From Nocardioides turkmenicus (GTDB taxonomy: Bacteria; Actinomycetota; Actinomycetes; Propionibacteriales; Nocardioidaceae), in NCBI RefSeq assembly GCF_011045035.1, contig NZ_JAALAA010000004.1:62001-126000 (forward strand): DNA of 64,000 nt, in the 5' to 3' direction. Made by a program: the position numbers and the translations under genes. A model generated the notes under the pieces. The model was not told where the DNA came from. It was given only the letters and a program-made list of their open reading frames with translations, and did no database searches. Within the stretch, counting starts at the first letter, position 1; every line of letters begins with the position of its first letter. This document shows positions 29,058 through 32,355 of this stretch, piece after piece.

Positions 29058-30842
29058 TCAGCTCTCCGCGGCCTGGACGAGGGTCCCGGCGGTGGCGCGC
29101 GCAGCGTGGAGCACGGCTCGCACACTGGCCATCAGCACGGACCGGTCTCGTCCCGCGGCCCAGTGGACGCCGACTCCGTTGCGGAACTCGATGACGGTCA
29201 GGGCTTCGCTGTCGTTCCCGGACCTGAGCGAGGACTGGTGCAGGGACAGGATGTCGACGCCGATGCGCTGCTCCGCCAGCAGTTGGGCGGTGGCTTCGAC
29301 GGGCCCGACGTCGTAGGAACCGCTGTGCTCCACTCCATCGATGCGAAGACGGATATCCGTACGGCTGGTGCCGTCGCGGCTCCCGGACTCGAGGTCGACC
29401 AGCTCGATGCCATCCGTCTCGCCGGTGAGGTAGACGGCCTCGAAGAGCTCGAGCAGCTGTGCCGGGTCGATCTCGCGACCCGTGGCGTCGGTGTGTTCCT
29501 GCACTCGACGTGCGAAGTCGATCTGGAGACGTCGCGGCAGCTCGATGCCGTACTCGGATGCGAGGAGGTAGGCGATACCACCCTTGCCCGACTGCGAGTT
29601 GACGCGGATGACTGCGTCGTAGCTCCGTCCGATGTCAGCAGGATCGATCGGCAGGTAGGGCACTCGCCACTCGATCTCGCTCCCCTGGCGGTCCTCGCCC
29701 GCAGCCCTGCCCTCGTGCTCGGCGAAGCCCTTCTTGATCGCGTCCTGGTGGGTGCCGCTGAAGGCGGTGTGCACGAGGTCGCCGACGTACGGATGACGCG
29801 GATGCACCTCGAGCTGGTTGCAGTGCTCGACGGTGCGTCGGATCTCGTCGATGTCGGAGAAGTCGATCATCGGGTCGATGCCCTGCGCATGCAGGTTCAG
29901 CGCCAGCGTGGCGATGTCGACGTTGCCGGTGCGCTCTCCGTTGCCGAAGAGGCAGCCCTCGACACGCTGTGCGCCGGCCAGCACCGCAAGCTCTGCGCAC
30001 GCGATTCCGGTGCCGCGATCGTTGTGCGGGTGCACCGAGAGGATCACGCTGTCACGGCGAGCAAGGTTCTTGTGCATGTACTCGATCTGATCGGCGTACA
30101 CGTTCGGCGTGGCGACTTCGACGGTTGCGGGCAGGTTGAGGATCACAGGCCGCTCAGGCGTCGCGTCCCACAGCGTCGTGATGGCATCGCAGATGTCGAG
30201 GGCGTAGTCGGGCTCCGTGAGATTGAAGACCTCGGGAGAGAATTCGAACCTCACGTTCGGCATGTCGTCAGCGAGCTCCAGAACGTCTCGACCACCGCGG
30301 AGGATGAGCTCCTTCACCTCATCGGCCGGGCGTCCGAGCACGACGTCGCGCCAGGTCGGGGCCGTAGCGGTGTACATGTGGATCACCACCTGATTCGCGA
30401 TGCCACGGATCGACTCCACCGTTCGCGCGATCAGGTCCCGGCGGGCCGGCGTGAAGACCACGATGGTGACGTCGGCAGGCGCGATGTCCGACTCTGCGAC
30501 GAGGCGTACGAAGTCGAAGTCGGTCTGAGAAGCGGAGGGGTATCCGATCTCGATCTCCTTGTAGCCCATCGCCACCATCAGCTCGAAGAAGCGGCGCTTT
30601 CGCCCGGGATCCATCGGTTCGGGCAGTGCCTGGTTTCCGTCTCGCAGGTCCACCGGCACCCACAGCGGAGCCTGGGTCAGTCGGCGGGTGGGCCAGTCTC
30701 GTTCGGCCAAGGGGACCTCGACGCGGGCATGGACGTCGCGATAACGGTACGACGGCATCTGAGACCGACGCTGCCGGTTCCAGACAGGAGCGTCGTCCGC
30801 GACGGGACCTGAGGGCGTGGCGATGGTGGGAAAGCTGGGCAT
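29058..30842 (-). CDS. leuA: 2-isopropylmalate synthase
   Basis: The 594-residue enzyme condenses 2-oxoisovalerate with acetyl-CoA, the first step of leucine synthesis. It matches the long mycobacterial Leu[18 protein letters not shown], the catalytic-barrel start [10 protein letters not shown] (metal Asp), [60 protein letters not shown] (His-x-His metal ligands), a subdomain with [10 protein letters not shown], and a C-terminal regulatory domain from about residue 440. The ATG at 30842 has AGGAGG ten bases upstream. The leader carries a Leu-rich peptide and alternative hairpins. Feedback inhibition by leucine through the C-terminal domain is expected from the family. Confidence 0.95.
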
Positions 30843-30848
30843 GCTGGT

Positions 30849-30916
30849 GGTTCCTCCTCTTCGGGGATCAGAGATGAACCGGCGCATGTCTCGACTCCAC
30901 GGTGAGGAGCCGGTTC
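30849..30916 (-). promoter_or_regulatory. leuA attenuator: alternative hairpins over the ribosome site
   Basis: On the minus-strand transcript, segment 1 (GAACCGGC, 30909-30916) can pair perfectly with segment 2 (GCCGGTTC, 30876-30883). Segment 2 can instead pair through GGTTC with segment 3 (GGAGGAACC, 30849-30857), which contains the leuA ribosome site. CTCCTC at 30904-30909 is also complementary to that site. A ribosome at the leader stop codon (30919) would cover segment 1 and favour the closed form; stalling at the Leu codons would free it. This is a translational attenuation model read from sequence. Confidence 0.7.
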
Positions 30917-30918
30917 GA

Positions 30919-30966
30919 CTAGGCCCCGCCGTGGCACAGAAGGAGAAGCACCTGCTGGATCAGCAC
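30919..30966 (-). CDS. leuL: Leucine leader peptide of leuA
   Basis: The 16-codon frame GTG...TAG encodes [15 protein letters not shown], with four consecutive leucine codons (CTT CTC CTT CTG) and five leucines in fifteen residues. There is no ribosome site at usable distance. The predicted transcription start, seven bases after the -10 hexamer, falls on the G of the GTG, so the peptide is probably translated as a leaderless message. It stops three bases before the first attenuator segment. Leaderless leader peptides of this sort are known for amino-acid operons in actinobacteria. Confidence 0.75.
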
Positions 30967-30972
30967 ACGGCC

Positions 30973-31001
30973 ACGCTACAACTCCTCAGACAAGTAGACA
31001 A
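30973..31001 (-). promoter_or_regulatory. leuA promoter
   Basis: Minus-strand TTGTCT (30996-31001) and TAGCGT (30973-30978) are 17 bp apart. TAGCGT fits the actinobacterial TAnnnT -10 consensus. The -35 overlaps the tandem repeat 30989-31004, so a protein bound there would compete with polymerase. Confidence 0.65.
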
Positions 31002-31004
31002 GTA
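30989..31004 (+). repeat. Tandem GACAAGTA repeat over the leuA -35
   Basis: GACAAGTA occurs twice in immediate succession, followed by GAG. It covers the leuA -35 hexamer and lies 11 bp before the divergent epimerase-like gene. A GntR regulator is encoded two genes along, making it a candidate binding protein, although the repeat does not match the standard FadR-type operator. Confidence 0.5.
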
Positions 31005-31014
31005 GAGTGCTTCC

Positions 31015-31656
31015 ATGAGCGATCGACCAGTCATCACATCCGCTGAGGTGCCCACCCTGAGAGTCTTCGTCGCCGGAGCGACCGGGGTGATCGGATCGCG
31101 CCTGCTGCCCCTGCTCGCCGCAGCCGGCCACACCGTGGCCGGAATGACCCGCACCGCGTCGAAGACGGAACTGGTCCGGGAGCTCGGTGCCGAGCCCGTG
31201 CTGTGCGACGTCTACGACACCGCGGCTCTCACCGCGGCGACGACGGCCTTCCGACCTGACCTGATCCTCCACCAGCTCACCGACCTCCCCGACGCCGCCG
31301 AGGAGCTACCAGAGCGACGAGACGACAACGCGCGCATCCGGATCGAGGGGACGCACAACCTCATCGCGGCGGCCACAGCGGCCGGATGCACGCGCCTCCT
31401 CGCTCAGAGCGTGGCCTGGGACCTGCCGCCCGGAGGCGGTGCCGACGCCGTGCGGGCACTCGAGGACGCCGTCCTCGGCTACGGCGGCACGGTGCTGCGT
31501 TACGGACAGTTCTACGGCCCTGGGACGTTCTACCCCGACGCCCTCCCCGCCGGCCCTAGCATCCAGGTCGACGCCGCCGCGGAGCGCACGGTCGCCGCGC
31601 TGGACCGTCCCAGCGGGATCCTCACGATCACCGACGACACCGACCTCGCGGTCTGA
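31015..31656 (+). CDS. NAD(P)-dependent epimerase/reductase-like protein
   Basis: This 213-residue protein has an extended-SDR Rossmann start (RVFVAGATGVIGSRLLPLLAAAGHTVAGMTR). It is about 90 residues shorter than full nucleotide-sugar epimerases and lacks a clear YxxxK: the only candidate region is YGQFYGPGTFYPD. It may bind NAD(P) without classical epimerase chemistry. It is first in a three-gene plus-strand cluster with GntR and an ABC ATPase, and is divergent from leuA. The function is unknown. Confidence 0.72.
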   Translation: MSDRPVITSAEVPTLRVFVAGATGVIGSRLLPLLAAAGHTVAGMTRTASKTELVRELGAEPVLCDVYDTAALTAATTAFRPDLILHQLTDLPDAAEELPERRDDNARIRIEGTHNLIAAATAAGCTRLLAQSVAWDLPPGGGADAVRALEDAVLGYGGTVLRYGQFYGPGTFYPDALPAGPSIQVDAAAERTVAALDRPSGILTITDDTDLAV

Positions 31657-31668
31657 GAGGAGCGGGTG

Positions 31669-32355
31669 ATGGGACAGGTGCAGCGGACCTCGCTGGCTGA
31701 TCAGGCCGCGAAGCTCCTCCTCGAGCGGATCCGTGCCGGCGAGTGGCAGATCGGGGCGAAGCTCCCCGGCGAGACCACGCTGGGTCCCCAGCTGGGCGTC
31801 GGCCGTTCGACGGTTCGCGAAGCGATCCGACAGCTGGCGGGCCGCGGCGTACTCCAGACACGGCAGGGTGCCGGCGTCTTCGTCACCGCACTCGACGTCA
31901 GCGACGACTGGGACGTCGTCCTGCGTCAGGCAGACATCGCTGCGGTCATCGAGGGCCGGATCGCCATCGAGACCGAGGCCGCCGCACTGGCTGCGCAGCG
32001 GCGTACGGCAGCGGATGTGCGAGCCATGCGACGCGCTCTGGCGCGGCGTGTCGTGGCCGGCCAGAGCACCGAGGAGTACGTCGACGCCGACATGGTGGTG
32101 CACCGCACCGTCGTGGCCGCTGCCCACAACATCGTCCTGCTGGACCTCTTCGACGGGTTCGTGCCACGCGTCCGCGAGGCGATGATCGACATGCTCGATC
32201 TCCGTCCGGCCGAGACCCCGTGCGATGCGAACTCATCAGGGGATGATCACGAAGCACATGCCGAGCTCGTGCAAGCGATCATCGACCGCGATCGGGCAGC
32301 GGCGGCGCGACTCAGCCGCGCCCACCTCACCGGACTGAAGGCGGCCCTGGGGTGA
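31669..32355 (+). CDS. GntR-family regulator, FCD (FadR) subgroup
   Basis: The 228-residue protein has an N-terminal winged HTH (LPGETTLGPQLGVGRSTVREAIRQLAGRGVLQTRQGAGVFV). The C-terminal all-helical FCD domain begins near residue 85 and has likely metal/ligand residues in VDADMVVHRTVVAAAHN and HAELVQAIIDRD. ATG 31669 is chosen over the adjacent GTG 31666 because AGGAG is then six bases away. It is followed by an ABC ATPase overlapping at GTGA. Direct control of this cluster, perhaps through the GACAAGTA repeat, is inferred. Confidence 0.88.
   Translation: MGQVQRTSLADQAAKLLLERIRAGEWQIGAKLPGETTLGPQLGVGRSTVREAIRQLAGRGVLQTRQGAGVFVTALDVSDDWDVVLRQADIAAVIEGRIAIETEAAALAAQRRTAADVRAMRRALARRVVAGQSTEEYVDADMVVHRTVVAAAHNIVLLDLFDGFVPRVREAMIDMLDLRPAETPCDANSSGDDHEAHAELVQAIIDRDRAAAARLSRAHLTGLKAALG

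Follow-up and report, generated by a model that had tools for sequence, protein, structure and literature searches.

A LEU element with a predicted leaderless leader peptide precedes the second leuA copy of Nocardioides turkmenicus in the stretch of DNA analysed here (64,000 nucleotides; hereafter the window). A leaderless leucine leader that acts on leuA, with no terminator-like site, is well supported by the comparison of 125 leuA loci. With moderate confidence, we regard the feature as a LEU-element translational attenuator, in which the run of Leu codons would lock the leuA Shine-Dalgarno (SD) and ribosome stalling would open it. New here are this lock-and-stall reading and a GntR-linked leuA2 module; the LEU element itself was already known.

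The LEU element upstream of actinobacterial leuA was described in 2005 (Seliverstov et al., PMC1262725), with a Leu-run leader, a pseudoknot, a base stem between Leu run and SD, and an alternative hairpin. Its authors left the mechanism open, preferring a binding protein, and according to them earlier S. coelicolor mutants (Craster 1999) misfit classical attenuation. Among the papers searched, this was the only one in which the LEU element is treated together with leuA. Similar to that element, the window has a Leu-run leader before leuA and a helix H1 with an S1:S2 pseudoknot, while the leaderless start, the Leu codon choice and the GntR-linked second leuA are additions here to what PMC1262725 describes. 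The descriptions consulted do not settle its mechanism (PMC1262725), and no Rfam covariance model, those of T-boxes and riboswitches included, matches the window element: the whole window gave no match at the gathering score, and 30780-31100 gave none even with E allowed up to 5. The comparison frames a specific question, namely whether the Leu codons act via decoding, via SD pairing, or via both.

The leader and its promoter across leuA loci

On the minus strand of the window, a -35-like hexamer TTGTCT (30996..31001) is followed after 17 nt by the -10 hexamer TAGCGT (30973..30978), and six nt further by the leader start, GTG 30966-30964. The leader (30919..30966) has 15 codons and a stop TAG at 30921-30919, and reads GTG CTG ATC CAG CAG GTG CTT CTC CTT CTG TGC CAC GGC GGG GCC TAG, with the Leu run CTT CTC CTT CTG at 30937..30948. 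The leuA SD, AGGAGG, lies at 30853..30858. Frame, hexamers and SD are all located where the sequence-only reading of this DNA had placed them. The gene downstream encodes a 2-isopropylmalate synthase (leuA2, 29058..30842; NF002991, 762 bits, above cut-off). A longer frame begins at ATG 30887, and the leuA start was taken as the ATG at 30842 because an SD is present and related proteins start nearby.

A sigma-70 scan at its threshold did not report the window promoter; the -35 hexamer was therefore judged weak, and the promoter call depends on comparison. The terminator scan of the window leader gave 0 terminator-like sites, i.e. no predicted Rho-independent terminator between the leader and leuA. 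The fold of the 137-nt leader was no more stable than that of shuffled sequences (z -0.82).

A DNA search using the leader as query matched only 2 of 58 genomes (the window's own and G014), and therefore the LeuA protein was used as query. With its N-terminus, a match at E 1e-40 was obtained in 77 of 98 genus genomes, and 45 genus loci (L005-L034, L115-L129), a subset of these matches, were analysed. From a named genome collection the best 80 of 588 confirmed stretches were used, which leans to LeuA proteins close to the window's. The 125 leuA loci, including 15 extra stretches and these best 80 of 588, were thus picked by protein and not by leader. The leuA2 clade comprises 33 loci (at least 65% identity), and the other leuA loci number 92. 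P values from this set are too strong, because the loci are related.

The leader was anchored in 122 of the 125 loci, a set that includes the best 80 of 588: 118 by an LLL pattern, and four by hand (L037, L051, L054, L059). This Leu-run anchoring replaced a regular expression on the H1 arm, which missed 23 of the 125 loci. Among the leaders anchored by hand, the Leu run is shorter or interrupted in L051 and L059; in L037 the stop codon comes immediately behind LLL, and the leader of L054 is very long. In L084, one of the three unanchored loci, the element was spotted by eye and has ILL; no leader was found in L038 (Microbacterium) or L060 (Frankia). The Leu run occurs in the leuA leaders of the close relatives L006-L009; its absence there would have counted against the sequence-only reading. 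A TANNNT box is located 6-10 nt upstream of an in-frame leader start in 115 of the 118 LLL loci (misses: L015, L039, L101), compared with a mean of 8.7 and a maximum of 17 after shuffling of the 100 nt upstream, counted at 4-10 nt. Since 122 of 125 leaders were anchored, and since the box count stands so far above the shuffled mean, leader and promoter are beyond chance. This is in agreement with the leaderless Leu leader acting on leuA of the sequence-only reading. Just 8 of 115 loci have a motif resembling an SD at 4-16 nt ahead of the leader start; in the window, GAGGAG finishes 16 nt upstream of the leader start, within a candidate operator. In 104 of 116 loci the distance between the end of the Leu run and the stop is exactly 18 nt. 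Judging by the promoter spacing, the leader at 30966 is probably translated from the first mRNA base.

Two of the loci deviate in other ways. In L038 (Microbacterium sp. SH_68_12), where leader and LEU element were not found, the leuA ATG directly follows the same promoter motif and the GntR gene is retained, as if leuA itself had turned leaderless. In L054 (Kribbella monticola) the leader frame consists of tandem leucine-rich units, with a greatly expanded Leu run, before an ordinary LEU element.

Leaders of this kind are described in several actinobacteria. Similar to the window leader, LeuL1 of S. lividans TK24 has 15 residues, five of them leucines, and precedes leuA (PMC8079986). This peptide, MRFGLLLLSCRGEGL, is leaderless by RNA-seq and has no typical Rho-independent terminator; its start was mapped experimentally, whereas that of the window is predicted from sequence (PMC8079986). 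In C. glutamicum, leuL/cg4015 also has four consecutive leucines before leuA, but its peptide, MTSRANLLLLRRGGSQRS, has a longer tail and its control is termed transcriptional attenuation (PMC4046766, PMC8709942). Leaders of leuA in corynebacteria are reported in PMC5784534, PMC4046766 and PMC8709942, and a leuA uORF is among the ribosome-protected uORFs of M. abscessus (PMC4974804). The polycysteine attenuators of mycobacteria (Canestrari 2020, via PMC13236596) are leaderless short ORFs that sense an amino acid, as proposed here, although cysteine rather than leucine; PMC13236596 calls this translation attenuation.

The Leu codons of the leuA leaders are 45% CTC, 43% CTT and 11% CTG, whereas the leuA genes downstream use 66% CTG, 29% CTC and 1% CTT. 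The last Leu codon of the run is CTT in 78% of the leaders. When the real run was ranked among its CTC/CTT alternatives for SD pairing, the rank was 0.373 (0.5 = random), a weak effect. In the genus, a short ORF with LL behind a TANNNT box precedes leuS in 27 of 29 loci, and 17 of 30 ilvB loci have a leader with at least three consecutive I/L/V, often ATT/CTT-CTC-GTA; both searches demanded the box and are uninformative on the share of box-less leaders. The 79 Leu codons of the leuS leaders comprise 45 CTT, 18 CTC and 16 CTG; the last of them is CTT in 26 of the 27 leaders, and CTG is most frequent third from the end. Since the leuS leaders, unconnected to a leuA SD, favour CTT too, the preference points to decoding, hence to translation of the leader, and need not reflect SD pairing. 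The window's own genome carries leaderless-type leaders before ilvB (L140, MLHSILVLIRRVA) and leuS (L174, MQMSVLLLRQPR).

RNA fold of the leader and pairing of the leuA SD

Helix H1 is formed by a 5′ arm at 30924..30934 and a 3′ arm at 30897..30907 (30934-30924 with 30907-30897), and appears in the clade and all-locus alignments. In the window 10 of its 11 pairs form, the mismatch being C 30928 against A 30903. Across 118 distinct sequences from 122 loci, 97.4% of the H1 cells are paired, and at least 9 of 11 pairs form in 117 of 122 loci (exceptions: L029, L049, L050, L052, L095). Segment S1 (GAACCGGC, 30909..30916) lies within the H1 loop, and its pseudoknot partner S2 (GCCGGTTC, 30876..30883) follows the helix; all 8 of their pairs form in the window. 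The S1:S2 cells are paired to 92.6% in the window's clade (31 sequences) vs 72.9% over the 118 distinct rows, a figure partly lowered by the alignment, which slips one column at S1 in many native sequences. Relative to the clade consensus GACCGGC/GCCGGTC, the window has an extra A in S1 that is matched by an extra U in S2.

Changes on both sides of a pair were found at 5 pairs of H1 and at 4 pairs of S1:S2 (118 distinct rows). Such cells number 164 vs 46.1 after shuffling over all 118 rows, and 20 vs 2.9 in the window's clade, and in both cases 0 of 500 shuffles were as high; counted instead by pairs, double changes occur at 9 (118 rows), a figure reached in 119 of 500 shuffles. A register-free comparison of the H1 loop with the sequence after H1 gave a mean longest pair run of 6.69, vs 5.28 for shuffled sequences and 6.06 for swapped partners, with runs of at least 6 pairs in 85 of 122 loci. 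The S1:S2 pseudoknot is real in the window's clade, where it covaries and is well supported; over all loci its support is lower. An earlier alignment, A1, holds 79 of the 122 anchored loci and was hand-picked, with duplicates, long loops and a divergent Microbacteriaceae type among the omitted rows. This selection flattered S1:S2 (83.2%), and therefore the figures given are those from all 122 loci (118 distinct). In the native leuA leader of the window's own genome (L115, ~2390-2415), the H1 loop holds extra bases at the usual place of S1; the leaders of L012, L016, L021 and L022, otherwise almost the same, do not have them.

In the window, 30947-30940 of the Leu run can pair with 30859-30852 across the SD (8 bp possible, -10.6 kcal/mol). 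In the duplex test (119 loci, 3 of 122 dropped), pairing of the Leu run with its own SD region came to -9.51 kcal/mol, and to -5.88 kcal/mol once the SD region was shuffled. A comparison of each run's own SD region with swapped ones was also tried as a measure of covariation and rejected, as z was -5.1 overall and 0.40 within leuA2, which was read as clade structure.

Masks were applied in 116 loci (L052, L059, L070, L082, L088 and L095 of the 122 were dropped), with a folding program that handles no pseudoknots. A 12-nt mask that finished where the Leu run finishes raised the mean predicted SD access by 0.121, with 49 loci up and 4 down by more than 0.1, and one that finished six nt later gave +0.081; nine other positions gave -0.029 to +0.029. 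The effect of the Leu-run mask points the same way in the leuA2 loci, the genus loci and the other native loci. When the mask was made ribosome-sized, SD access averaged 0.307 for a ribosome on the last Leu codon, 0.227 for one at the stop and 0.190 with no mask, and the mask on the last Leu codon moved 55 loci up and 15 down. According to the duplex test and these scans, the conserved predicted partner of the SD is the Leu codon run, matching the 2005 drawing (PMC1262725), and a stalled ribosome may remove this SD lock directly. For the window alone the response is smaller: the 12-nt mask over the Leu run changed SD access by +0.003, and the ribosome-sized mask gave 0.290 with none, 0.335 at the last Leu codon and 0.295 at the stop. 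In the window's predicted fold, where a local hairpin pairs the SD, masking the run fails to open it, and neither version of the switch is convincing there.

Proposed mechanism and its alternatives

In the attenuator that we favour, transcription would begin at or beside GTG 30966, and a ribosome would load at the 5′ end of the mRNA and read the 15-codon leader, as the promoter spacing suggests. The four-Leu-codon run, complementary to the leuA SD, would lock it, while H1 and the S1:S2 pseudoknot would fold the leader and bring run and SD together. When leucine is abundant, the ribosome would pass quickly, the run would be freed again and leuA translation would stay low. When charged tRNA-Leu is scarce, the ribosome would stall on the run and cover it, and the SD would be exposed. 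We infer this stalling, and likewise the direction and size of the effect on leuA; the frame, the conserved promoter spacing, the covarying helices, the codon bias and the complementarity are observed. The lower S1:S2 figure over all loci leaves the standing of this mechanism unchanged, because its basis is the Leu run together with the counts from the clade itself.

The sequence-only reading had drawn the switch differently, with three segments in exclusive pairings: a ribosome at the stop would cover S1, so that S2 pairs with GGAACC (30854-30849) and hides the SD, and stalling would let S1:S2 form and leave the SD open. All segments are in place, and the S1:S2 half of that proposal stands, with 8 bp that are conserved and covary in the clade. 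The best unconstrained fold of the window also contains a local hairpin in which S2 pairs with the SD stretch, and the higher SD access at the last Leu codon than at the stop (0.307 vs 0.227, 116 loci) fits this order of events. A mask that finishes 18 nt beyond the Leu run lowers SD access slightly, by -0.064 in leuA2 and -0.054 in the genus, but gives +0.037 in other native loci. The S2:SD half did no better than shuffled sequences: S2 against the stretch to the leuA start gave -9.54 kcal/mol vs -10.14 kcal/mol shuffled (119 loci), with no excess pairing, and predicted SD access was 0.357 with S2 and 0.364 without it (117 loci, 5 of 122 dropped). On these two null tests S2:SD sequestration was rejected as a conserved switch, and the detailed switch that had been proposed finds no support at the level of the family. 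In the window itself, removal of S2 gave 0.27 vs 0.33, and S2 held under a stalled ribosome gave 0.165, both in the wrong direction, and we consider the three-segment switch unlikely.

Quite unlikely, in our estimation, is also that transcription is attenuated instead, with Rho or pausing ending transcripts in the leader, or with a terminator that the scan missed. Leucine control of C. glutamicum leuA carries this name (PMC8709942), but neither the window leader, by the scan, nor S. lividans LeuL1, as described in PMC8079986, has a typical terminator, an absence that is compatible with Rho. Finally, PMC1262725 proposed from the earlier mutant data and the phylogenetic distribution that the LEU element is a protein-binding RNA, with the leader peptide incidental. 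Such an RNA would have no need of the conserved promoter-to-start spacing, the run-to-stop distance or the unusual Leu codons, and we hold this proposal to be very improbable.

The second leuA, its GntR neighbour and other leucine genes

The genome of the window carries two leuA genes. An RNA model (R1) was built from A1 with the window leader included, so that its match to this leader is by construction; on the own genome it scored the two leuA leaders at 65.7 and 64.4 bits and the next match at 27.6. A copy 76-100% identical to the window's across the matched N-terminus was present in 5 of 98 genus genomes, including the window's. A tree by a quick method, from 73 of 109 sufficiently long rows and with 32 of the 33 leuA2 loci, places the 32 leuA2 rows, the window's among them, on one side of a branch with SH-aLRT 100. 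There the leuA2 rows of the genus intermingle, at poor resolution, with those of Microbacteriaceae, Gordonia, Tsukamurella and Arthrobacter, which suggests that leuA2 spread horizontally. The LeuA_dimer (allosteric) domain scores 41 bits in the window's protein vs 115 in native LeuA, and therefore feedback control of the enzyme may differ.

Divergent from leuA2, on the plus strand, the window encodes a GntR-FCD regulator (31666..32355; PF00392 and PF07729 above cut-off). A GntR-FCD relative was found in the fetched flank of 30 of the 33 leuA2 loci (missing: L006, L008, L055) vs 0 of the 92 other leuA loci. The promoter region holds an imperfect palindrome, CTTGTCTGAGGAG (30982..30994, minus strand). 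With up to 2 mismatches allowed, it is present in 31 of the 33 leuA2 loci (missing: L060, L061) vs 0 of the 92 others; in L053 the motif, CTTGTCTGACAAG, is a perfect palindrome about one base. This clade-specific motif is a candidate GntR-FCD operator that the regulator may bind, and through it leuA2 transcription is probably also GntR-controlled, in what looks like control by a repressor. The titles and abstract openings searched held nothing fitting on a GntR-linked leuA. Such a second leuA suggests how actinobacteria may gain an additional way into leucine synthesis that is controlled separately. Between leuA2 and gntR, on the plus strand, lies an epimerase-like gene (31015..31656), whose match to PF01370 is confined to the first half of the profile (positions 1-112 of 240). 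The fetched flanks of the 32 other leuA2-clade loci yielded no counterpart, and the gene may have been inserted here or be truncated.

Tentatively, and as somewhat less than probable, we propose a wider picture. The Leu codons would serve as both sensor and lock (anti-SD), with the pseudoknot as scaffold; leuA, leuA2, leuB and leuC would form one regulon; and leuA2, the GntR gene, the operator and the LEU element would be a module mobile between actinobacterial families.

The 27.6-bit match in the own genome (E 0.03; L191, contig C43, 1486-1536) is a weak LEU-like element upstream of leuB (NF002898, 577 bits), with the leader MRSIFLVLECRDGARR behind TACCGT. A hairpin after this leader was seen by eye, and the terminator scan reports none. 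In the phylum search, LEU elements were found before other leucine genes in 3 of 29 loci (L197-L225): before leuB in L209 (1489-1530, leader MRHALILRCRGGA), and before leuC in L215 (1486-1536, leader MRRVVLLLSSRDETSF) and L217 (1483-1536, leader MRAPRRLLLRCRGGASI).
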